Made by a program: the position numbers and the translations under genes. Source: a virus. Taken from it: a DNA stretch of 20,593 nucleotides. Location of the stretch: positions 1-20,593 of the IMG/VR virus record IMGVR_UViG_3300013004_000229; one strand, written 5' to 3'. How positions within the stretch are numbered: the first letter of the stretch is position 1; each line of letters begins with the position of its first letter. The notes beneath the pieces were generated by a model. It was not told where the DNA came from. It was given only the letters and a program-made list of their open reading frames with translations, and made no database searches. This document shows, in pieces, positions 2,199-19,751 of the stretch.

Positions 2199-3092
2199 TT
2201 ATCCTGCCTCATATATTGTACCACTAGAAGCTAGCTGTACCTCTACTAATTCATCGTTTGCCAAGTTTATAAATTCAATCACTAGGTCACCATTAGCATC
2301 TAGGTATGTGTTAGCACCGCCTGAACCACTACCAACTTGTGGAATTTTATCAACAAGGTTAATTGAAAAATTTCCAAAAATTGTATTAGATGTGTCTCTA
2401 AGCTTTAAGAGATTGCTTGGGTTATATTGTTGCTGCAATATGTTAATGTTTTTGATAGGCTGATAAAGCACAGTCTGGCCATTGACAGTATCGTGTCTTG
2501 AAATGGTTAATATTTCTTGACCGCCAATACTTTCAAACAACAAGTCAGCAATAATTTCTTTTGGAACAGCGTCATCGTCAAACAATATAGTATCTATTGG
2601 TGCTACCTTTACCTTTGGTGGTGGAGGAGGAGGAGGTGGTGGTGTTGGGTAAGATGGTTCTGGATTTACTACAACAGCCGCAGTCCCTTCTTCTTCCACA
2701 ACTGGGTCTTGCTCTACTACAGGATCCGATATTTGTGGCAATGTTGTTAGCTTAGCCGTAAACATTGGAGGTGGCGTAAACATTGGAGGTGGCGTAAACA
2801 TTGGAGGTGGTGGGGGTGGCCCAGCTTGATTATCTAGCGTCCTCATATACTGAGTAAGACTCATACCAGAAGCTTCAAAAGCTGCTTTACTAGAAGCCTG
2901 CTCTCTAGCTGCTGGAGGTGGAATTGAAAACCTTGGTGGAGGTGGCGGTGGCGGATTAAACATGGGTGGCGGAGGCGGAGGAACCGAAAACCTTGGTGGT
3001 GGCGGAGGGGGTGGGGAAAACATTGGAGGGGGTGTCTTGGGAGGTGGAGACACTCTATCTGCAACTATTGGGCCTATTCCTGCTCGTGCCAT
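2199..3092 (-). CDS. Proline-rich minor tail protein
   Basis: A 297-residue protein in two parts. Residues 15 to about 160 are dominated by polyproline blocks of up to nine prolines, separated by short spacers such as RFS, MFN and MFT. The only longer non-proline island is an Ala-rich helical stretch (AAREQASSKAAFEASG). Residues about 170 to 297 form a folded domain with ILTISRHDTVNGQTVLYQPI and DLVIEFINLANDELVEVQL, a type I recall from actinophage minor tail proteins. Long proline runs would probably need elongation factor P for translation. The start lies two bases after the hub stop codon, with GAGG seven bases upstream. Position places it at the tail tip; the polyproline part may be a rigid spacer. 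No enzymatic motif is visible. Confidence 0.75.
   Translation of the reverse strand: MARAGIGPIVADRVSPPPKTPPPMFSPPPPPPPRFSVPPPPPPMFNPPPPPPPRFSIPPPAAREQASSKAAFEASGMSLTQYMRTLDNQAGPPPPPPMFTPPPMFTPPPMFTAKLTTLPQISDPVVEQDPVVEEEGTAAVVVNPEPSYPTPPPPPPPPPKVKVAPIDTILFDDDAVPKEIIADLLFESIGGQEILTISRHDTVNGQTVLYQPIKNINILQQQYNPSNLLKLRDTSNTIFGNFSINLVDKIPQVGSGSGGANTYLDANGDLVIEFINLANDELVEVQLASSGTIYEAG
2761..2811 (-). repeat. 18-bp tandem repeat within proline-rich gene
   Basis: On the plus strand the unit aacattggaggtggcgta occurs twice exactly, followed by a third copy that matches for its first 14 bases. It is in frame and encodes repeated PPPMFT units in the proline-rich tail protein. The two exact copies imply recent slippage or unequal exchange; copy number could vary between related phages. 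Confidence 0.85.
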
Positions 3093-7423: not shown

Positions 7424-8055
7424 TATACCTCCTCTAAAGTAATGCTGACATTCCACATGTCAAAATTGTCAGCACCTCTTTTTTCTATTGAGTAATTAAA
7501 AGAAGTAATGTACATAAAATAAAAGTCTGTATAGTTGGCTAATTTTCCATAATCTGCGTCTTCATATCCAGAACTTGCAAAATTATCATACGACAAATAT
7601 ACCCAAAACGGAACTCTATGTGTTTGATACCAAGCTAAAATTTCTGCTCCACCAGCTCCACCATCAGCAGTATACTCGTCAGTAGTTTTTGTTAAATCAG
7701 ATATACCAGTTGATTGAGAAAAGTCTGGGTTTGTAGCGTAAGCTCTAGATGGCAGTCTATCCCAGCTTAGCTCAATTGTTCTTTTTTCACTAACATAAAA
7801 AGACCTCATCTGGGCATTAACCATTCTCTGTCTATTTTCAAATCTATTAGACGATATGTTTATTGGTGCACGATTATGATCTGATAAAATAATAAACGAA
7901 TTTTCTGATATGTCAGTTGCTCCATACTCTGAGCTTAACTCAAATCCAGGTGGTCTGGCAACGCCATTAAGAAATACTGGTGCATTATCAGCAAACAATA
8001 CTGCTTGTGGTCTGGAATAACGTTTTCTATTATTCATATATTGCTGGGTAGCCAT
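7423..8055 (-). CDS. Distal tail-like minor tail protein
   Basis: A 210-residue protein between tape measure and hub, the position of the distal tail protein (Dit) in siphoviruses. Visible features are RTIELSWDRLPSRAY near residue 95, an aromatic stretch (VPFWVYLSYDNF), and a C terminus reading NFDMWNVSITLEEV. Such WNVS(I/V)TLEE endings are familiar from minor tail proteins that join the tube end to the tip. It has no lectin-sized extension, so it would be a short Dit form. The ATG overlaps the tape-measure TAA (TAATG) and its own stop overlaps the hub GTG, so three tail genes are coupled in series. The Dit assignment rests mainly on gene order; it could be another tail-tip ring protein. Confidence 0.7.
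   Translation of the reverse strand: MATQQYMNNRKRYSRPQAVLFADNAPVFLNGVARPPGFELSSEYGATDISENSFIILSDHNRAPINISSNRFENRQRMVNAQMRSFYVSEKRTIELSWDRLPSRAYATNPDFSQSTGISDLTKTTDEYTADGGAGGAEILAWYQTHRVPFWVYLSYDNFASSGYEDADYGKLANYTDFYFMYITSFNYSIEKRGADNFDMWNVSITLEEV
7428..7434 (-). promoter_or_regulatory. Ribosome-binding site fixing hub GTG start
   Basis: The minus strand reads GAGGAGG inside the last Glu codons of the preceding gene, four bases before GTG 7423. This strong site, together with the TAGTG stop/start overlap, sets the hub start at 7423 rather than at an upstream in-frame codon. Confidence 0.8.
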
Positions 8056-11000
8056 TAATTAATCACCTTACCCCTGAGTCGCTGAGAATCCATTTGCTTA
8101 ATTTTCCTAATTACAGTGTCTGCGATAGTGTCAGGGTTTGCGTCTGATCCACCCTTAACATTTACACTTAAACTATAATTATACACTGTGCTAGAGTTGT
8201 CTGAGTTAACAATTGATGGATTTTCTGGTGCTCCCAAGTCATAGCCTTTTGGCATAGTAGGCCTAGGCATCCTAGATGGAGCAGTCAAATTTTTCCAATT
8301 TGGTCTAGAAGCTGATGGCACTGAAATCTTTAAATTATTTCTAAACGTTGGCTTGAGCTCAAAAGAATCACCAGGACGCATCATCATGTCCCTAATCATT
8401 CCAGGGAATTTGCTTTCGTTCATTGCTTTAAGCATTGGCATAAATTCTTTTGTAGAAGCTTTGTTAACCACAAACTCTCCTGGGGTTAGCATAGCTGGAA
8501 CTACGTCTCCCATTCCTGTACCGCCAACTACACCACCATAAGCCATCCTCTTAATAACTCCACCATACTTCTTCTTCTGAAGCCTTGACGCTGTAGCGTT
8601 GTCTCTTCTGACCTCTGTAGCGGCTACCTTCTTTTTATCGCTTGCAATCCATCTCTCTGCTGCGTCAGCACTCATACCAGCATATTTGTTTGTAGGAGTT
8701 GTTGACTTCTTTGAATCAGTTGTTGTAGTGGTAGACTTAGAGCTTGTTCCACCACCACCGCCGCCACCACCGCCACTAGCAGGAAGAACGACCTCTTGTA
8801 TGAACAACTTAACAGTTTTATCTTTAATCTCTGTCCAGTTTTTCACAATATCTCCAACAAGTAGCTTAGCTACGTCGAGAACATCTTTGTACTTTCCTGC
8901 AGCAATATTTGAAAGGTCTTGGGCTAGCCTTGCATCTTCAAAGGCTTGTCTCTGAAGGTCAATTGCATCAAGCTGTGTCTGCTTCTGCTGTTCCAAAACA
9001 GCAAGTCTATCTTGAGCAGCCTTGAGAGTTCCAGTTTCAATTGTGTAAATTCTATCCTGTAGATCACGAATTTCACGAAGCTTTACTTCTTTTTGCTCTT
9101 CAAGGTTATAAATCTGCTGAGTAATTGCAAACTGTCTTTGTTCGATTTGTTCTCTGTTTAATCCAGATGCCCCAGTTAGTCCAGCCAACTCTGATTGACG
9201 AGCAGCGTCTAGTGCACCACCAATTGAGCCAGTAGCTGCTGCAGCTGATTGAGCTCTCATGTCTTGCATTAGTCCAGCTGCTGCTGAGATATCTCCCTGG
9301 CTTAATGCATCAGCAAGGCTAATTTGAGACTTCTGCTGATTAATGATATCCTGATTAATCTTTTTAACATCTTCTAGAGCCTTTGCTTGAGCGTCATACT
9401 TTTCAGTAATTGCCTTAGACTTTTGATCAATAATTGCAAGGTCGTTAGAAAGGTCGCTAGCTTCTTCCTGTAGATCAGCAATTGGTCTATCATAAGTAAG
9501 CTCAATAGTTCTTTCTTTTTTAGCAACGTCTTCTTGCAAATCTGAAATTTCTTTTTCAGCTGCTTCAATTGCATCTTGTTCTTTCTTAATCCTGTCACGA
9601 TAGTTTCTTTCAATGTTTCTTTCAAGAATATCGAAGTACTCATTTGCCTTACTAATTATGTCGTCAAGGAATCCATCAAAGTCTGTTTGTACTTTAATTG
9701 ATAACTCTAATGCCTCTAGCTTCTTTGCTTCAGCATTTGTTTGCTTAATAAGGCTAATAAGCTTTTCCCACTGAGCTGTACCTGGTCTTGTTTTAGCTAT
9801 AGCTGCTGCAATTTGTGGATCGCTAGCTGCATCAAAAGCTTCCTTGACACCCATACCAGCTGCACGTAGCTTATTGAATGCACCTATGTTATTCCTAATT
9901 TCGTCTCTTTGCTTCTGCAGGCCCTCAACTGCTTCTTGGTAGTCGCTCTTTTTGCCTGCTCCGCCGCCTCCAGAGCGTGCTACAGGGGATGCGGCAGCTA
10001 AGGCCATCATTTCCCTATATCTATCCATTAACACGGTCTGTTCGGCTGAGTTAGCTGCTGCTGCTAGGGCTGCTGCAAAGTTAGCATCTGCCACTGCAGC
10101 GGTAGCCTCAGCTGCACTAAATCCATTTTGAGTTAATATGTTATAGGCTGTAGCTTCATTTTGAAGTGCTTGGATTCTTGCATCAAGATCATCAAGCCCC
10201 TCTCTATATTCTGCTGCCTCAATTTCAACCTGAAGCTCTTCTTGTTTTGCTTCAGCTGCTGCTTCTGCTGCTTGAACTTCTGCATTGGTAGCCTTGACCA
10301 TGTCTTCTTTAATTCTAAGAAGCTCTTCCTGATCTTTTGGATTAGTGCTCTTAGATAGCTGTGTCATTCTGTCAATTGTTTCTTGAGGCACCTCAACGCC
10401 ACTAAGCAGTGCTTCAATAACAACTAGCTGAGACTCTAAATCAGTTAGCCCCTTAAGCTGCTCTTCTACTCCAAGGTTTTTAGCAATTGTAGGAAGCACT
10501 AGGCCAAGTGCTGCTGGATCTAAACTTCTAAGGTTTCCAGTAATTATAGAAATCTCAGATTGGAATTTTGTTGCAGAGAGGGTTCCCTGATCAAGTCCAG
10601 CCTTCAAGGCAGTAATTGCGGTACTTACTTCTCCACCCAAAGTTGCAGCTTGTTGCTTAAGCTTTTCTGGCAGGATTGCTGCCTGAGTCATAGTTCCTCT
10701 ATAAGTCTCTATTGTTTGAGGAGGAACATATGCTGCTTCAAATGCTTGGTTGTATGCAGAAGCATTAGCCTTTGCTGTAGTTGCAATGCTCTGTAGAGAT
10801 GCAGCATCAGTTGGGTCAAACTTAACACCAAAAGATAGATTTACATCAGTCTTACCTGCTTCAGTTGCAATAGCAGTAGCAAGTGCTGCAGCTGCATCTG
10901 GACTAGATCCTGAAGCAATCAACTGAATAATCATTGAGTTAAGAGCAGACTCTGCTTCTGCAAGTGTTGCACCCTTTATTGCATTAATCTGATCAGCAAA

Positions 11001-14000
11001 ATCAGTAGTAAAGTTTTCGCTTTGCTGTATCTCTTGTGCCTTTGATAGCTGAGAACCCTCAACACCCTTTACCTGAGTAATACCAGCAGAAAGGTTAACT
11101 CCACCTGTTGGGGTAAAGCCAAGAAGTTCTCCTGCCTTCTTCATCTTTTCAGCTGCTAAGAATGCAGTATCTCCAAGACCAGTAATCTTTTTCTTTTGCT
11201 CTTCTATAATACTTCCAACAAACTTAAATGCTTCAAATGCTAGAAGTGCTCCACCAATAAATGGCACTGCTCTTAGTAAGAAGCTTCCAAGTTTTCCTAG
11301 TGGACCAATAACACTAGTTACTGCACCACCAATATTTGCCATTAGTCCAGCACCCTTTGCTAGGCCTGCACCGCCGCCACGCTTTGTCATAGCAAAAAGA
11401 TTTCCACCAATAGCACTTGCTTTTTCGACAAGCTTAGCTGAAGTAAGTGCTGATGTCACTGTGGTAAGAGCAGAGAAAGCCAAGCTTACCTGGAAAAGAA
11501 TGCCAGCAATTTCTCCAACTGTTCCGCCAAACATTGACATAACACCAGCCACACCAGAAATAGCAAAGCTGGCTTTTTGTGCAGTATTTGAGAACTCTCC
11601 TACTTTGGCAATGGTAGATCCAAGCTGAGCAGTAAATGCCCTCTGAAGCCCAACTTGCCTAGAAGCTTCTTGAGCAGCCATCTTAGACGCAGGCTTATAG
11701 TTGCTTGCCTTTGCGTCATAAATTAGATTTTCTCCGCCAGTATTGGCTCGCCTTGGCCTTCCTGCTTGAGTAACAGCTGTAACAGTTTCCTTTGCTGCTT
11801 CTTCAACTTTTGGTTTTCCACGTTTTAATTCATTTGCATATCCATCAACAGTGTCTTTTGCAATTGCCTTTGTTCTTTTTGATTCAGAGTTTGTCTGTGC
11901 CGATTCTTGTAGGCCATCATTAAACTGTGCAAGCTGAACGCCTGCTAAAGGCTGTGCTCTTTCAAACTTGTTTCCTCCAAGGCGTAGCTCCCTGCCCTGA
12001 GAAGTTCTTACACGACTCTTTTGCGACATTCTTGTTGGATCTGCTGAACTTGGAACCTGGTATGGCTGTAATCCTGCAGCCTTTGCATCATCAGCTGTTG
12101 GGTTTACTCTAAACTGGTAAAGTCCTTTTTCTGCTGCATCAAGTGCTGCTCGTAATTTAGATGTAGCTGGAATTGACTGACGAACTTCTTTTTCAAGTAA
12201 TGCAAACTGCTCAGAAGTTATGGTAGCATTTTTGTTTTGACTAACAAGAGCAGAAACTCCCTTTGCAATTTCAGCATCATAAAGTGCAAGTTCTTCTGCA
12301 ACCTCGCTCATCTTGGCACCACCAAGCTTCACACTCTTTGCCCACTTGTCAGCACCTCTTGATTCAAAGTCTGCCAAGAAATCTGATGCTGAAACGGCAC
12401 CACCATCTCTCATTCCAATATTTAACTTAGAATCTTGAGAGAATCCTAGTCCAGAATAAATGTGTGCTTTTAGGTCTGGACCAAATGTGTCACGAAGATC
12501 TTTAACTGTAGACAGCATGGCTTGTGAAATTTTTCCTGTACCACTAGTTAGTGCAGAAACAAGTTCATCAATTGTCACTGTCATTCTATCTGTAACGTGA
12601 GCAAAATCAGCTTTTACTGATGTGCCTGACTTTCCAACTTGACCACCCTGATTAAAACCAGGAAGCTTTCCAGCATTAAGTGCTTCTAAGAAAGGAAGCA
12701 TCTTTTGTGCTACTGATTTCTTAACTACGAATTCACCAGGTGTGAGCATTGCAGCAACAGTATCTTTGTTTCCAGATCCGCCAACTGTTCCACCAGAAGC
12801 AAACTTGGCTCCTGGCTTAAATCCTGGTTTCATCATGTTTGGATTCATTGCTGCAAACTTCATACCAGCTGCCATGGCTTGCTCGTATGCAATCTTTAGC
12901 TGATTAACAGCACCTGCTTCAACATTAAATGTTTGGATGAGGTTTGAGTGAGACTGGTTAAGAGATGCTGCAGCAGCTGATGCTTCTAGCTGCTCCATTG
13001 TCATATACTGGGTTGACTCACCAAGAACCTTAGTCTGACCAGTTATTCCAAGGTAGCCATTTCGTAGCATTGCAATAAATTTAATTGAGTTTGCAATACC
13101 GTTAGCAAGAAGACCAAAAGTCATTAGGATAACTGGACCCAAACCACCAACAATTGCAACAGTAGCAGCTACTGCTTTTTTAATTCCTTCAGGCAGTGCG
13201 TTAAACCTTTCTAGAATGTCTGATATGATTTCTACAAACGGTGTAACAACTTCAAGGAAAACCTCACCAATTGGGGCTAAAGCTATTTTTAAATCTTCAA
13301 CAGTCTTGAGGAACTTGTTCATTGCAGACTCTGCAGTCACTCCAAGTTCTTTTTCAGACATACTTGCTAGCTCACCAATAGAAGCTCCTGCAAGATCTAG
13401 AACACGAGAAGCCTGAGTTCCATCTCTAATTACGTTATCAAACAAAGTAGATAGACGTGCAAACTGGAACTTACCAAATAGTTGCTCAATTGCTTGAGCT
13501 CGTTTTGTTGGCTCTAGCTTATCAAGTGCTTGAGCAAAACCAATAACTACACCCTTAACGTCATTTGGATTAGCTTCAACAATTCCTCTAAGGTTAATTC
13601 CAAGACTTGCTAAGAAAGCTGCAGACTTTTCACTTGGGTTAATCAATGATGCAAGACCAGACTTTAGGGCGTTAGCACCTTCTGAGGCATTAATTCCACC
13701 TTCCTTCATTGCAGCCATGAAGAAGGCTAGATCTTTTACGTCACCACCAAGAGACTGAATAACTGGTGCAACCTTTGGAATAGCTGTTGTGATGTCGTCA
13801 AGAGAAACTACTGTTTGGTTTTCAACGGCGTTAAGGAAATCAATAGACTGAGCTAGATCTGCTGAAGAAAGTCTAAAAGAGTTCTGTAAAGATATTGTTG
13901 TCTCTAGTGACTTCTGGTAATCAATTTGACCAAGTACGGATAGTCGTAAAGATTGCTCAGTCTGTCTTTGTAGGTCTACCCCAGAAAAACCAGCTGCAGC

Positions 14001-14801
14001 AGCTTCAGCTGCAATTCCTACAGTGTCAGCAGCTGCAATTCCATATTGGGTAAATCCAGAAGCCAATGCCTGAATTTCTTCAAGAGCTTTTGCCCTTTCA
14101 GCATCTGGGGTAAATAAATCTCCATATACCTTTTTAAACTTAATTACTTGAGCTTCCATCTCCATGAAAGTTTTTGCTGCAACTGTTCCAAGTGTGACTA
14201 GTGGCAGAGTAAAACCAACCATAAGCTGACGACCAGCCCACTGGGTGTTCTTACCAAAGTTTAGAAGATTTGTAGATCCCTGCTTAACAAGCTGATTAAA
14301 CAATGCTTGCTTTTGAGCAGCAATAGCTGTTTGTGTGCCAAGATCTTTCATGTCAAGGACTTGAGGCCTGATTGCAATTGCTTGCATTGCACCTTGTGCA
14401 TCACGACCAAGCTTGACGTATTGCGTCTGAAGAGTCTTTACTCTCTCAACAGCAACCTTTTCAATTGTATTAAACTCTGCTGCAAAGTTTTTGCCAAATG
14501 TTTTTGTGGCACCAGCAGAGTATCTGAAATACTCTCGCATTGAGAATTTGTTTTTCTCAAGAGAGTTTGTAAAGGTTTCTGCGGAAGTTCTAACAGTACG
14601 CAACTCTGCAGAGAAAGCTCCAATAGAGTTAATGCTATTGACAAAGTTTTTCTGCAGGTTGCGTTGTGCTAAGGCTGCTGCCTCACTGCTTTTTGCTATA
14701 GAACTGTGAAACTGCGAGATCTGACGCTGAAGGGCTTTGAGCTGCGACAATGCATCTGACGTATCTATTCCTACGCCAATATTGGCATTTACATCTGCCA
14801 T
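8055..14801 (-). CDS. Tail tape measure protein
   Basis: At 2248 residues this is the longest gene. It sets tail length and helps genome ejection. Residues 10 to 60 are a heptad-like helix. About 185 to 530 match the TP901-type tape-measure core (WAGRQLMVGFTLPLVTLGTV, followed by SLQNSFRLSSADLAQSIDFL). Hydrophobic segments lie near 545 to 575, 1075 to 1120 and 1170 to 1200. About 1715 to 1970 is a charged coiled coil (KEISDLQEDVAKKERTIEL). A run of nine glycines near 2010 and a Thr/Ser/Lys linker precede the tail-end region. The motif AMLTPGEFVV occurs twice, near 687 and 2105. The C terminus (VYNYSLSVNVKGGSD) is typical of the family. GAGGTGA lies seven bases before the ATG. At about 0.15 nm per residue the tail would be roughly 330 nm long (rule-of-thumb inference). 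Confidence 0.95.
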   Translation of the reverse strand: MADVNANIGVGIDTSDALSQLKALQRQISQFHSSIAKSSEAAALAQRNLQKNFVNSINSIGAFSAELRTVRTSAETFTNSLEKNKFSMREYFRYSAGATKTFGKNFAAEFNTIEKVAVERVKTLQTQYVKLGRDAQGAMQAIAIRPQVLDMKDLGTQTAIAAQKQALFNQLVKQGSTNLLNFGKNTQWAGRQLMVGFTLPLVTLGTVAAKTFMEMEAQVIKFKKVYGDLFTPDAERAKALEEIQALASGFTQYGIAAADTVGIAAEAAAAGFSGVDLQRQTEQSLRLSVLGQIDYQKSLETTISLQNSFRLSSADLAQSIDFLNAVENQTVVSLDDITTAIPKVAPVIQSLGGDVKDLAFFMAAMKEGGINASEGANALKSGLASLINPSEKSAAFLASLGINLRGIVEANPNDVKGVVIGFAQALDKLEPTKRAQAIEQLFGKFQFARLSTLFDNVIRDGTQASRVLDLAGASIGELASMSEKELGVTAESAMNKFLKTVEDLKIALAPIGEVFLEVVTPFVEIISDILERFNALPEGIKKAVAATVAIVGGLGPVILMTFGLLANGIANSIKFIAMLRNGYLGITGQTKVLGESTQYMTMEQLEASAAAASLNQSHSNLIQTFNVEAGAVNQLKIAYEQAMAAGMKFAAMNPNMMKPGFKPGAKFASGGTVGGSGNKDTVAAMLTPGEFVVKKSVAQKMLPFLEALNAGKLPGFNQGGQVGKSGTSVKADFAHVTDRMTVTIDELVSALTSGTGKISQAMLSTVKDLRDTFGPDLKAHIYSGLGFSQDSKLNIGMRDGGAVSASDFLADFESRGADKWAKSVKLGGAKMSEVAEELALYDAEIAKGVSALVSQNKNATITSEQFALLEKEVRQSIPATSKLRAALDAAEKGLYQFRVNPTADDAKAAGLQPYQVPSSADPTRMSQKSRVRTSQGRELRLGGNKFERAQPLAGVQLAQFNDGLQESAQTNSESKRTKAIAKDTVDGYANELKRGKPKVEEAAKETVTAVTQAGRPRRANTGGENLIYDAKASNYKPASKMAAQEASRQVGLQRAFTAQLGSTIAKVGEFSNTAQKASFAISGVAGVMSMFGGTVGEIAGILFQVSLAFSALTTVTSALTSAKLVEKASAIGGNLFAMTKRGGGAGLAKGAGLMANIGGAVTSVIGPLGKLGSFLLRAVPFIGGALLAFEAFKFVGSIIEEQKKKITGLGDTAFLAAEKMKKAGELLGFTPTGGVNLSAGITQVKGVEGSQLSKAQEIQQSENFTTDFADQINAIKGATLAEAESALNSMIIQLIASGSSPDAAAALATAIATEAGKTDVNLSFGVKFDPTDAASLQSIATTAKANASAYNQAFEAAYVPPQTIETYRGTMTQAAILPEKLKQQAATLGGEVSTAITALKAGLDQGTLSATKFQSEISIITGNLRSLDPAALGLVLPTIAKNLGVEEQLKGLTDLESQLVVIEALLSGVEVPQETIDRMTQLSKSTNPKDQEELLRIKEDMVKATNAEVQAAEAAAEAKQEELQVEIEAAEYREGLDDLDARIQALQNEATAYNILTQNGFSAAEATAAVADANFAAALAAAANSAEQTVLMDRYREMMALAAASPVARSGGGGAGKKSDYQEAVEGLQKQRDEIRNNIGAFNKLRAAGMGVKEAFDAASDPQIAAAIAKTRPGTAQWEKLISLIKQTNAEAKKLEALELSIKVQTDFDGFLDDIISKANEYFDILERNIERNYRDRIKKEQDAIEAAEKEISDLQEDVAKKERTIELTYDRPIADLQEEASDLSNDLAIIDQKSKAITEKYDAQAKALEDVKKINQDIINQQKSQISLADALSQGDISAAAGLMQDMRAQSAAAATGSIGGALDAARQSELAGLTGASGLNREQIEQRQFAITQQIYNLEEQKEVKLREIRDLQDRIYTIETGTLKAAQDRLAVLEQQKQTQLDAIDLQRQAFEDARLAQDLSNIAAGKYKDVLDVAKLLVGDIVKNWTEIKDKTVKLFIQEVVLPASGGGGGGGGGTSSKSTTTTTDSKKSTTPTNKYAGMSADAAERWIASDKKKVAATEVRRDNATASRLQKKKYGGVIKRMAYGGVVGGTGMGDVVPAMLTPGEFVVNKASTKEFMPMLKAMNESKFPGMIRDMMMRPGDSFELKPTFRNNLKISVPSASRPNWKNLTAPSRMPRPTMPKGYDLGAPENPSIVNSDNSSTVYNYSLSVNVKGGSDANPDTIADTVIRKIKQMDSQRLRGKVIN

Positions 14802-14827: not shown

Positions 14828-15145
14828 TTAGTTATCTAAAACGTTTGCTACGCTATCAAGCTTTACTCCAGATGCTGCTTCAACAATCTTGTAGACTGTT
14901 GGAAGATCTAGAAGCTCTTCAAGAGCCTTTACATCTCCAGCAAGTTCTGGCTTGTACTGCTTCATAGCAATTTGCACACACTCTAGAAGAAGGTTAACTG
15001 ACTTTTCGTTGTCCTCAGCTACCTCTGCTACCCCCTCAAACTTCTTCATGAATGGCTTAAGAAGAGAGATTTTTAGTGGACGTACGGTAATCTCAGTGCC
15101 ATCGATCAAAGTTAAAGTTTGCTCTGTATAAATTGTGGTTGCCAT
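14828..15145 (-). CDS. Short tail-assembly chaperone paralogue
   Basis: A 105-residue protein immediately before the tape measure, where the gpG-type tail-assembly chaperone sits. It aligns along its whole length, with one single-residue gap, to the first ~104 residues of the gene upstream: shared blocks are PLKI--LK--M--FE, ECV-IAM-QY-PE and DL--YKI--AA-G-K. It lacks the C-terminal extension of that neighbour. Both alternative frames at its 3' end close within a few codons, and only 26 bases separate it from the tape measure, so no frameshifted extension is possible there. AAGGA lies six bases before the ATG. Likely role: coats the tape measure during tail assembly and is absent from the mature virion (family knowledge). 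Confidence 0.8.
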   Translation of the reverse strand: MATTIYTEQTLTLIDGTEITVRPLKISLLKPFMKKFEGVAEVAEDNEKSVNLLLECVQIAMKQYKPELAGDVKALEELLDLPTVYKIVEAASGVKLDSVANVLDN

Positions 15146-15171
15146 TTAGTGTCCTTCCATATGGTTATTTA

Positions 15172-15180
15172 ATTATACCA
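15172..15180 (-). promoter_or_regulatory. Extended -10 promoter candidate before short chaperone
   Basis: The minus strand reads TGGTATAAT in the 42-base gap between the two chaperone genes, a full TGnTATAAT match. No -35 box is recognisable. Initiation about seven bases downstream would give a leader of roughly 20 bases containing the AAGGA ribosome-binding site. It would let the short chaperone and tape measure be transcribed independently of the long chaperone. Confidence 0.4.
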
Positions 15181-15187
15181 TAGCTAC

Positions 15188-15880
15188 TTAGCCTTTTACG
15201 ACTTCATAGCTTAGGCCCATGCCAATACCAAAGCCAGCTTTTTGAGCGTTTATACCCTGTAATGCAATAATGTCATTAGAGTCACTAGTTGCACCACCAC
15301 TAAATACCCTGGCTTTCATATCTTCCCACTTTTTCTGTGGATCTTCTTGTTGCTGTCCATCAAGGTCTACACCCTGAAGAGCAGCTAAAAACTTTCGTTC
15401 TTCAAAGTTTAACTCTCTTCTAGAATTTAGTATTGCTGTTAATTCTGGAATAGATATAGATTTTTCTAGCTCATCATAATTTTTCCAAATTCCCAACAAA
15501 AACACTTCAGTTTCTAGCTTTGCCAAGTCAAAGTTGTCCCAAGTTGAATCTGACTGCTCTTCTTTGGCCTGTTCTAAAACTGGCTCTTCGTCATTAATCT
15601 TAATACCTGCGGCGGCATCCAATATCTTATAAATTGCCACTAAATCAAAGTTATCCTCAACATCATCAACGCTATTAGAAAACTCTGGATAGTATTGCTG
15701 CATAGCTATTCTGACGCACTCAACCATAACTGAAATAGCTTGCTCGTCAGTTTCACTAATTTTAATAGTTTCAAAACGACTCATTAGCTCTTTAAGATAT
15801 TTAATCTTTAGCGGCGAAAGCTCTATCTCCATCATGTCCATAGTATAGACGTAGTCTAGTCTGTAGATTTCTGTAGGCAT
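15188..15880 (-). CDS. Long tail-assembly chaperone (G-T type, in frame)
   Basis: A 230-residue protein between the major tail protein and the short chaperone. Residues 1 to 104 are paralogous to the short chaperone. Residues about 117 to 230 form a second domain (LAKLETEVFLLGIWKNYDEL; RKFLAALQGVDLDG) ending in KAGFGIGMGLSYEVV, a type of ending I associate with the frameshifted 'T' part of chaperones in other siphoviruses. Here the two parts are joined in one frame, so the long form needs no programmed frameshift. The start at ATG 15880 is supported by residue-by-residue N-terminal alignment with the paralogue, though no clear ribosome-binding site precedes it. It lies just after a strong terminator, so its expression should be far below that of the tube protein. 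Role inferred: recruits the tail tube subunit to the chaperone-coated tape measure. Confidence 0.8.
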   Translation of the reverse strand: MPTEIYRLDYVYTMDMMEIELSPLKIKYLKELMSRFETIKISETDEQAISVMVECVRIAMQQYYPEFSNSVDDVEDNFDLVAIYKILDAAAGIKINDEEPVLEQAKEEQSDSTWDNFDLAKLETEVFLLGIWKNYDELEKSISIPELTAILNSRRELNFEERKFLAALQGVDLDGQQQEDPQKKWEDMKARVFSGGATSDSNDIIALQGINAQKAGFGIGMGLSYEVVKG

Positions 15881-15895
15881 TATATAAGTTTACCA

Positions 15896-15928
15896 TAAAA
15901 GCAAAGCCCACCTCCGAAGAGATGGGCT
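15896..15928 (-). terminator. Intrinsic terminator after major tail protein
   Basis: On the minus strand AGCCCATCTC pairs with GAGGTGGGCT (ten pairs including one G-T) around a TTCG loop closed by C-G, the very stable UUCG tetraloop arrangement. TTTGCTTTT follows. It lies about 20 bases after the major tail protein stop and 16 to 25 bases before the long chaperone start, so it should end most transcripts after the tube gene. Confidence 0.8.
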
Positions 15929-15947: not shown

Positions 15948-16592
15948 TTAGGTAGCTGGAACAAATGTACGGTCGATGATCTTTCCGTAGGAAGCATCTG
16001 AGTCATCTGGTAGCAAGCGGAAAGAAACTTCAAACATTGAAGCCTCGTCACGCTTTGCGGATACGGTTACGTTCTCAATTGAAAGAGCACGGTAAGCTGC
16101 GTAAATACGCTCTACTGTCTCTCCAACTGCACAGTCACCTGTACCTGCACCAACTGCAATAATACCACGCTCTACTGGACATTCTCCAAGAGAACCTGAA
16201 CTTAGGTCTAGGGTTCTTCCTGCAGACTGTGACTTGTTACCTGATAGCTTATCGTTATTGTATGCCAATGCGATAAGTAGGTTTTCAAGGGTTGCCTCAG
16301 CAAAAGCTGTATTTAGGTTTACCTGCATGCCCTGCTTGTATAGCTTTGCTACGTCAAGGAGCTGGTCAACCTGTACTTCACCAAAATCTGGTGCGAAGCT
16401 AAGCTCCAAACCATTCATGGTGTATCCAACGTTTGTGTAATCAGCAGTATACGGAGCCTCTGATAGAGTCTCACGGTAAGATTCTGATGACACGAAAGCT
16501 GGTAGGGTGCTCGCATCAACGACGGTGTCTGCAACGAAGAACGAAGCTGCACCTACGATGATGTTATTAGAGTTACCACGTGTGTATGCCAT
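15948..16592 (-). CDS. Major tail (tube) protein
   Basis: A 214-residue protein that builds the tail tube. The chosen start is ATG 16592 because GAGGTGA lies five bases upstream; an in-frame GTG at 16601 overlaps that site and is rejected. The sequence starts MAYTRGNSNNIIVGAASFFV and includes GYTMNGLELSFAPDFGEVQV and ISI-like C-terminal strands (VTVSAKRDEASMFEVSFRLL), a pattern of a beta-sandwich tube protein with an N-terminal arm. Codon use stands out from its neighbours: Arg is mainly CGT and Tyr mainly TAC, as in the capsid gene, which suggests high expression. It has its own candidate promoter upstream and a strong terminator downstream, so it is close to a single-gene transcription unit. 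Confidence 0.85.
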   Translation of the reverse strand: MAYTRGNSNNIIVGAASFFVADTVVDASTLPAFVSSESYRETLSEAPYTADYTNVGYTMNGLELSFAPDFGEVQVDQLLDVAKLYKQGMQVNLNTAFAEATLENLLIALAYNNDKLSGNKSQSAGRTLDLSSGSLGECPVERGIIAVGAGTGDCAVGETVERIYAAYRALSIENVTVSAKRDEASMFEVSFRLLPDDSDASYGKIIDRTFVPAT

Positions 16593-16597
16593 ATATT

Positions 16598-16604
16598 TCA
16601 CCTC
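16598..16604 (-). promoter_or_regulatory. Ribosome-binding site fixing major tail protein start
   Basis: GAGGTGA on the minus strand lies five bases before ATG 16592. It overlaps an alternative in-frame GTG at 16601, which would have no site of its own; the ATG is therefore preferred. Confidence 0.75.
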
Positions 16605-18418: not shown

Positions 18419-19413
18419 TACAACATCCTCATCTTTTTAACATTGTTCACATACTTGTTTAGAATCTTGTCTACAAGGATATTTCCTGTTCCGTCGATTA
18501 CAGACTTATCCATCTGAATCCTAAACTGATCAGTAGAATAGCTAGTGATATATCTCTTGTAGTAGTCTAGCTTTCCACATTTAAGATCGTCAATAAGCAT
18601 TAAGGTGGCCTCTTTAATGTCTGATGGGATAATCTTGTATCCCTGCTCAAGCTGGAACCTATAGTCAAACCTTGATGGGAAACTTACTCCTGGCCTAAAG
18701 GTAAATGTGTTTGCACTGTCATCTGTTTCAAAAATTCCAATTGAATCAGAAACTCCAATAAAAGTTGGGTTTGGGTTACTTTCTGATCTGTTATATTCTC
18801 CAGCATAATTTACAGGTGCCTTAGTTATTGCACTCTTGTCTTTTGTAATGAGATAATTCCAGTCTCCCAAAGCTGGTGTCTCTAACGAAGAGTCATAAAC
18901 AAGCTCATCGTTTTCGTATGCTTCTAAAATCTTATAAGTTTTTTCCCAGAGTGGCACGTAGTCAGTACCCTCTCCAGTTGTTTCCATCCAGTTTGATTTG
19001 AAGTAAAAACCATCAGTTGCAGAATCAATAATTGCCCTGGCAATCATTTCATCTTTAGTTGCTTGTGCCAGAGTGTATCCTGCTGAAGTAATAGAGCTTG
19101 GATCTACGTATGGTCTTTCTACTGTCAAGGTATCTTCAACAATAATTTCGTCATTGCTGTCCTGAATCTCTAAGTGGTAATACTCATCATACTTGCTAAA
19201 ATCAACAAGAATGACTTCGTTGTCATCCTCGTCTAGTTCTGTAATTACCCATGGAATGATAACGGTATCTTCTCCATAGGAAACTGTGTAAGTAAAGGAA
19301 GCCAAAAGTTCATCCATGTCGTGGCTTCTAACGTAAATGGTGTAGGTGTCTTCTTCTGGAACTTCATATTCCGCAAAAGAATCAGTATATGGGGGTAACC
19401 TTAAAATATTCAT
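18418..19413 (-). CDS. Head-tail adaptor with N-terminal Ig-like domain
   Basis: A 331-residue protein. Residues about 225 to 331 resemble the helical adaptor of the HK97 gp6/SPP1 gp15 group: IIPSDIKEATLMLIDDLKCG, then SYSTDQFRIQMDKSVIDGTG and a final helix (NILVDKILNKYVNNVKK). Such proteins form a ring under the portal. Residues 1 to about 100 look like a separate beta-sandwich: DTYTIYVRSHDMDELLASFT, then VILVDFSKYDEYYHLEIQDS and IIVEDTLTVERPYVDP. Typical adaptors are only 100 to 150 residues, so this one carries roughly 200 extra N-terminal residues. The ATG overlaps the previous stop (TAATG). Adaptor identity is fairly likely; the added domain's role is unknown, perhaps decoration around the vertex. 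Confidence 0.65.
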   Translation of the reverse strand: MNILRLPPYTDSFAEYEVPEEDTYTIYVRSHDMDELLASFTYTVSYGEDTVIIPWVITELDEDDNEVILVDFSKYDEYYHLEIQDSNDEIIVEDTLTVERPYVDPSSITSAGYTLAQATKDEMIARAIIDSATDGFYFKSNWMETTGEGTDYVPLWEKTYKILEAYENDELVYDSSLETPALGDWNYLITKDKSAITKAPVNYAGEYNRSESNPNPTFIGVSDSIGIFETDDSANTFTFRPGVSFPSRFDYRFQLEQGYKIIPSDIKEATLMLIDDLKCGKLDYYKRYITSYSTDQFRIQMDKSVIDGTGNILVDKILNKYVNNVKKMRML

Positions 19414-19724
19414 TATTTAACGCCGTAGTGTTTTGCTACCTCTTCTGGAGTCGCTAAGCGAACAGTCCTATGAGCTAGCCAAAAATTGGCAGTCTCCTTA
19501 CTAACAATATTATACCCCTTGCTTAGCTCTCCCCACTTAGCTTGTGAAATGTTTCCTTCTGCAAATAACGCTACAGTGTCATTATTTTTTAGGTTTACTT
19601 CTATTTTTGGTATTGTATTTTCTTTTGTTTCTTTTTCTGAAAGCTCTTGCACGGCCTCTTCATAAAGCACTTCTAATGGCTTTAGGCTAATAAAATCTAA
19701 ATCTTTATCAGTTTTTTCATTCAT
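19413..19724 (-). CDS. Small head-module protein of unknown function
   Basis: A 103-residue acidic protein directly downstream of the capsid gene. Residues 1 to 45 are charged and probably helical or disordered (Glu/Lys-rich). Residues 50 to 103 form a compact domain: AEGNISQAKWGELSKGYNIV then NFWLAHRTVRLATPEEVAKH, ending in YGVK. I recall similar 'RLATPEEVA-x-YGV' tails in small proteins next to phage capsid genes, but I know no established function. A strong GGAGG lies six bases before the ATG, and a perfect extended -10 element lies just upstream of that. It starts the connector operon. Possible roles are a minor capsid, decoration or vertex factor; I cannot choose between them. Confidence 0.65.
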   Translation of the reverse strand: MNEKTDKDLDFISLKPLEVLYEEAVQELSEKETKENTIPKIEVNLKNNDTVALFAEGNISQAKWGELSKGYNIVSKETANFWLAHRTVRLATPEEVAKHYGVK

Positions 19725-19742: not shown

Positions 19743-19751
19743 ATTATATCA
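19743..19751 (-). promoter_or_regulatory. Extended -10 promoter candidate for connector operon
   Basis: The minus strand reads TGATATAAT, a perfect TGnTATAAT, between the capsid terminator hairpin and the small head-module gene. No -35 box is recognisable at 16 to 18 bases upstream, where the terminator stem lies. A start about seven bases downstream gives a leader of about a dozen bases that begins almost at GGAGG. Confidence 0.45.

Follow-up and report, generated by a model that had tools for sequence, protein, structure and literature searches.

Two adjacent genes of the virus IMGVR_UViG_3300013004_000229 very probably represent a duplicated and split tail assembly chaperone, in which a single ancestral gene with a -1 frameshift was duplicated once, giving rise to a short protein predicted to be abundant and a long protein predicted to be scarce, the latter with an apparently leaderless message. 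The evidence for this reading was obtained by sequence comparison and comprises the homology of the two genes, their synteny, the fit to a single origin, the loss of frameshift signals and conserved start signals that differ between the two genes. On this basis transcription starts and an abundance ratio of the short to the long form are predicted, with chaperone roles carried over from lambda G and GT. The window analysed is the whole stretch of 20,593 nucleotides, positions 1 to 20,593 of the record.

The gene pair and its surroundings

In transcription order, the minus strand of the window carries a capsid-type protein, head-tail genes, the major tail protein, the long gene, the short gene, the tape measure and minor tail genes. 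The major tail (tube) protein gene (15948..16601, minus strand) was identified by PHROG 2175 (E=1.5e-32) and by its position, which is that of the annotated major tail protein in Stanwilliamsviridae. Its open reading frame as listed begins at GTG 16601, and translation probably begins at the ATG located three codons downstream. The tape measure protein gene (8055..14801, minus strand; 2248 residues; PHROG 10030, E=4.4e-94) follows 26 bases after the short gene. The pair is thus flanked by the genes for the major tail protein and the tape measure, as is characteristic of G/GT chaperones. Elsewhere in the tail region, a 297-residue open reading frame (2199-3092, minus strand) contains many proline runs (PPPPPPP-MF/RF repeats) and gave no Pfam or PHROG match.

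The short gene (14828..15145, minus strand) encodes 105 residues consisting of the N domain only, and the long gene (15188..15880, minus strand) encodes 230 residues in which N and T are fused in frame; both assignments draw on the open reading frames, BLASTP, PHROGs and AlphaFold models. In BLASTP the short protein aligned with the first 104 residues of the long one with 41/104 identical (39%) and 70/104 positive residues (E=1e-25), interrupted by one gap of a single residue. At the sequence level this confirms the short protein and the N-terminal (G-like) domain of the long protein (15584..15880, minus strand) as paralogues with a similarity well beyond chance. Open reading frames and alignment thereby agree with a preliminary description of this DNA, which had proposed two separate genes, the short one homologous to the first 104 residues of the long one with only one gap. 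Both proteins match PHROG 10504 (E=7.9e-22 for the short and 3.5e-15 for the long). The T-like domain of the long protein starts at W114 (15191..15541, minus strand), matches PHROG 10474 (E=5.4e-15), aligns with 39-46% identity to Streptomyces phages and is homologous to the T reading frame found in the -1 frame of Stanwilliamsviridae. Homology to the chaperone family of that group (PHROG 10504 / 10474) was accordingly found for N as well as T. A Pfam search with the short and long proteins yielded no match above the cut-off for either, and an Rfam search of the whole window gave no match. An assembly artefact was considered as the source of the pair and ruled out by a second contig that is 100% identical, another that is 97% identical and 252 complete relatives with the same layout.

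The kinship of the two N-terminal domains is also suggested by their AlphaFold models, which share the same order of secondary structure elements (E9-12, E18-21, H26-41, H45/46-63/64, H65/66-68/69, H71/72-77/78 and H80/81-91/92), with a mean pLDDT of about 90 for the long N domain and only 61.6, a low confidence, for the short model. A Foldseek search of both models, including the low-confidence short one, against the solved structures of the PDB gave no match, and among predicted viral structures one named tail assembly chaperone was matched (E=5e-4). The function of this family as tail assembly chaperones is based on gene position and database annotation, and the roles of the two forms would follow by analogy with lambda G/GT.

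Frameshift signals and origin of the pair

Approximately 330 loci were gathered from a viral collection, bacterial genomes and annotated phages, some of them being different stretches of one contig. The arrangement with tail protein, N and T in one frame, N, and tape measure, which the preliminary description had proposed to look for in related phages, recurs in 252 complete loci. A second arrangement, with tail protein, N, T in another frame and tape measure, was found in 43 loci. Among the approximately 330 loci, no complete one has the fusion by itself or combines a frameshift with a second copy, and the loci showing a fusion alone break off at the contig end. Over whole records, exactly two copies of the N domain were counted in 13/13 contigs with the gene pair, and exactly one in two single-copy contigs of the sister group. 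The single-copy relatives consist of Stanwilliamsviridae, one MAG contig and a closer sister group. When bacterial genomes were scanned for the T domain, one locus was found, L248, which has the frameshift layout and lies on a contig filed under a cyanobacterial MAG, its host being unsure. In one further locus, L088, an open reading frame of about 180 residues (MIYIFGDSHTDR...) is inserted between the tail protein and the long gene. A WhiB gene is present in 14/14 large relatives and, of 14 control genomes, only Corynebacterium has one; the presence of WhiB throughout these relatives suggests that the hosts are probably actinobacteria.

In the single-copy loci the T domain lies in the -1 frame in 34/34 distinct cases, and a candidate slip site was found at all 32 N ends tested. 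Standard X_XXY_YYZ heptamers (C_CCA_AAT, C_CCA_AAC, C_CCA_AAA and G_GGA_AAC, thus mainly C_CCA_AAN or G_GGA_AAC) occur at 20/32 of these ends, as against 4.8 expected from codon shuffles, and the remaining 12/32 carry C_CCG_GAA. The latter departs from the X_XXY_YYZ pattern and is the likely slip site in Boydwoodruffvirinae (Stanwilliamsviridae; L163, L165, L166), where it is conserved in 12 distinct loci. Beyond the N stop of the single-copy genes, the -1 frame continues for a median of 100 codons before it closes, and in Patelgo the chaperone is annotated as a joined CDS.

The gene pair lacks these features. The long gene has N and T in the same frame, so that the overlapping N and T frames of G/GT genes are absent, as is a slippery site at the end of N. 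Zero-frame heptamers, none of them conserved, are present in 15/157 of the long linkers, whereas codon shuffles predict 31; beyond the stop of the short gene, the -1 frame closes after a median of 6 codons and the +1 frame after 4. Because the heptamers in the long linkers fall below the shuffles and the -1 frame closes soon after the short stop, the pair, as far as its sequence can tell, retains no frameshift signal. Given the clear -1 layout of the single-copy relatives, one might suppose that recoding, by frameshift or otherwise, persists in one gene of the pair and that the second copy is redundant, but the scarcity of heptamers and the early closure of both alternative frames make this highly improbable.

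This leads to the question of how the pair arose. When each of 158 N domains in a tree is labelled as long, short or single, two changes of label suffice, the minimum possible; this tree rests on only 101 columns and several of its branches are poorly supported, with a modest value of 77/100 for the long group, and a branch separates the short group from the rest in 38% of the bootstrap trees. The T-domain tree needs one change. In the tree of the major tail protein, the single-copy loci with G_GGA_AAC (L276, L281, L310, L326) are placed beside the loci with the gene pair, and Stanwilliamsviridae lie outside. A single ancient duplication that took the place of the -1 frameshift accords with the trees, and the simplest history would have the frameshift as ancestral, followed by one duplication, fusion of the upstream copy and loss of T from the downstream copy. 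That paralogous genes stand in place of a programmed frameshift, the central claim of the preliminary description, is thus upheld by the -1 layout of the single-copy loci, the absence of a slip site or a -1 extension in the pair, the copy numbers of two versus one and the minimal-change trees.

Within one phage the long N domain and the short protein are on average 40% identical (range 0.29-0.49) and do not cluster by phage, and on these grounds neither the N tree nor the within-phage identities show any sign of gene conversion between the two. Between phages the short protein is the more conserved copy, at 69% identity versus 56% for the long N domain, and the two differ in their invariant residues. 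Such divergence and unequal constraint could indicate that the N domains have taken up separate jobs, the short one as a chaperone of the tape measure and the long one as a chaperone of the tube protein, in which case mixed complexes would not be needed and the ratio would not be the point. This alternative is rather unlikely, as the same domain and predicted secondary structure are kept in both proteins and the opposite start signals described below look like a control of relative amounts.

Start signals of the two genes

Between the two genes, where the preliminary description had noted a promoter-like element, a perfect extended -10 element, TGGTATAAT, is found upstream of the short gene (15172..15180, minus strand), followed by the Shine-Dalgarno sequence GGAAGGA (15152..15158, minus strand). 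An element of this type is kept in 166/166 distinct loci with the gene pair, and a Shine-Dalgarno sequence in 165/166, these loci being related sequences and not independent trials. The element is mostly TGNTATAAT and usually ends 24-30 nt before the start. Its columns are 97-100% conserved, whereas most neighbouring columns reach 40-80%, and such conserved elements among variable neighbours are a stronger argument than the raw locus counts. In L045, L046 and their relatives the -10 element of the short gene contains the stop of the long gene (the long protein ends ...VV stop, then TTAA), meaning that the promoter stays put while the stop moves. The single-copy genes have a -10 element at about -31 to -43 together with a Shine-Dalgarno sequence, as in the short gene, and from this shared layout the ancestral control appears to survive in the short copy and the leader to have been lost from the long one.

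The long gene is preceded by different signals. A terminator-like hairpin of 10 pairs with a loop of 4, followed by TTGCTTTTAT, is located between the tail protein and the long gene (15905..15928, minus strand), and the corresponding gap in relatives also folds into a hairpin, with a mean fold energy of the gap of -25.4 kcal/mol. Downstream of it, the extended -10 element TGGTAAACT (15887..15895, minus strand) has its last base 7 nt before the ATG, and because of this spacing the predicted transcript apparently begins at or next to the ATG, as a leaderless message. A Shine-Dalgarno sequence is found in 0/166 of the distinct loci and an extended -10 element in 158/166, ending 6-10 nt before the ATG in 145/158; in the 8 exceptions only the TG is missing, a -10 hexamer being present at the same distance. 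The long gene therefore shows what marks a leaderless gene, namely a -10 element at 6-10 nt from the start codon and no Shine-Dalgarno sequence. Among diverged representatives (less than 78% identical for the long and less than 85% for the short), the long element is present in 67/72 and a Shine-Dalgarno sequence in 0/72, and the short gene has a Shine-Dalgarno sequence in 50/51. The calculated pairing with the anti-Shine-Dalgarno sequence is -10.2 kcal/mol for the short gene and -3.1 kcal/mol for the long. These opposite, conserved start signals, as read from the alignments, are new here and go beyond the preliminary description.

The pair could also be read from one long late transcript, with the -10-like elements being AT-rich noise and the ratio resulting from Shine-Dalgarno strength only. 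In keeping with this, a generic sigma-70 scan of the region showed no excess over shuffles, a scan that needs a -35 and so misses extended -10 elements, and TGNTATAAT occurs 3 times in the window versus 1.2 expected. The elements are nevertheless at a fixed place upstream of both genes, in numbers far above the 9% (short) and 17% (long) seen in shuffled upstream sequences, and an extended -10 element precedes the tape measure gene in only 3/166 and the major tail protein gene in only 4/162 loci. The conservation of the short -10 columns over their neighbours and the terminator-like hairpin ahead of the long gene likewise speak against a single transcript, and in L140 the short gene retains its element despite a 776-nt insert with a methyltransferase-like open reading frame between the two genes. 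A single late transcript is accordingly considered improbable. Since the tape measure gene of the relatives so rarely has an extended -10 element of its own, it is probably part of the transcript of the short gene.

The other two perfect copies of TGNTATAAT in the window, at 127-135 and 19743-19751 (minus strand), are both intergenic and on the coding strand. They are probably further late promoters, the second preceding the gene 19413-19724.

A duplicated and split chaperone would then work as follows. The ancestor would have had one gene, like that of Stanwilliamsviridae, yielding N and, by a -1 ribosomal slip, N-T. After its duplication in one ancestor of the actinophage clade, N and T would have been fused in frame in the upstream copy, with loss of the slip site, and T would have disappeared from the downstream copy. 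The short copy, keeping the ancestral extended -10, a leader of about 20 nt and the Shine-Dalgarno sequence, would owing to its strong promoter and Shine-Dalgarno sequence be made in large amounts, together with the tape measure protein encoded directly after it, which it would coat. The long copy, separated from the transcript of the tail protein by the terminator-like hairpin, would use an off-consensus -10 that starts a leaderless message at the ATG; with this weaker promoter, little long protein is expected. On the tape measure, the N domain of the long protein would join the short one, and tail-tube subunits would be recruited by the T domain. The suggestion of the preliminary description that the ratio is set by transcription and translation and not by slippage is supported by the conserved intergenic element and by the leaderless-type promoter that the long gene has of its own without a Shine-Dalgarno sequence, the ratio itself being a prediction. 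Messages that start at the long gene and read through could also be translated into the short protein. Actinobacteria commonly use leaderless messages; in M. tuberculosis they account for about a quarter of those genes that have a primary start site (PMC3898074). Those of M. tuberculosis are not clearly poorer in protein per mRNA (PMC3898074), and for this reason the equation of leaderless with scarce may fail.

Known chaperone systems and significance

The closest described system is that of Stanwilliamsviridae (Streptomyces phages BillNye, Coruscant, Patelgo, Mildred21, Genie2 and Beuffert), which have homologous N and T domains and the same gene order from the head-tail adaptor to the tape measure, with a chaperone annotation in several records. 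In these phages there is one copy with T in the -1 frame and a conserved slip site, whereas here there are two genes. Lambda likewise has a short N and a long N-T form, G and GT, encoded between the tube protein and the tape measure, but makes both from one frameshifting gene. The G:GT ratio is 30:1, and the excess of short G coats the tape measure while the rare G-T brings tube subunits (PMC5009743). A tblastn search of the long protein against 50,697 phage records returned only Streptomyces (127) and Rhodococcus (3) phages, and hence no sequence link to lambda and no match to T4-like records.

In some T4-like phages, a precedent that the preliminary description does not mention, a separate short gene and a long fusion of the short and the downstream part reportedly replace the frameshift (Vladimirov, Gautam and Davidson 2022, Virology 566:9, as cited in PMC10885494). 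As far as that citing account describes them, these are separate short and fusion genes that share the N domain, as does the pair here, and provide a precedent for two-gene chaperones. The pair differs in belonging to another lineage, that of Stanwilliamsviridae relatives with probable actinobacterial hosts, for which a frameshifting sister group can be named. Judged by the sequences compared, the actinophage case would be independent, with the contrast between a led and a leaderless gene in addition. No paper describing a two-gene chaperone pair in actinophages was found in the open-access literature, most subscription journals lying outside this search.

The G/GT frameshift is among the most conserved recoding events in phages. 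Frameshifting phages are available here both as an outgroup and as a sister group of the two-gene clade, which allows the transition from slippage to duplication to be located on a tree and the control that took over to be read from sequence. There is an even chance that this widespread clade dropped the -1 frameshift once, by duplication, and moved control of the ratio to two dedicated promoters, one for a leaderless message and one for a message led by a Shine-Dalgarno sequence, which would let the ratio respond to the state of the host ribosomes. The pair also offers a testable natural case of leaderless versus led translation setting the stoichiometry of two proteins.
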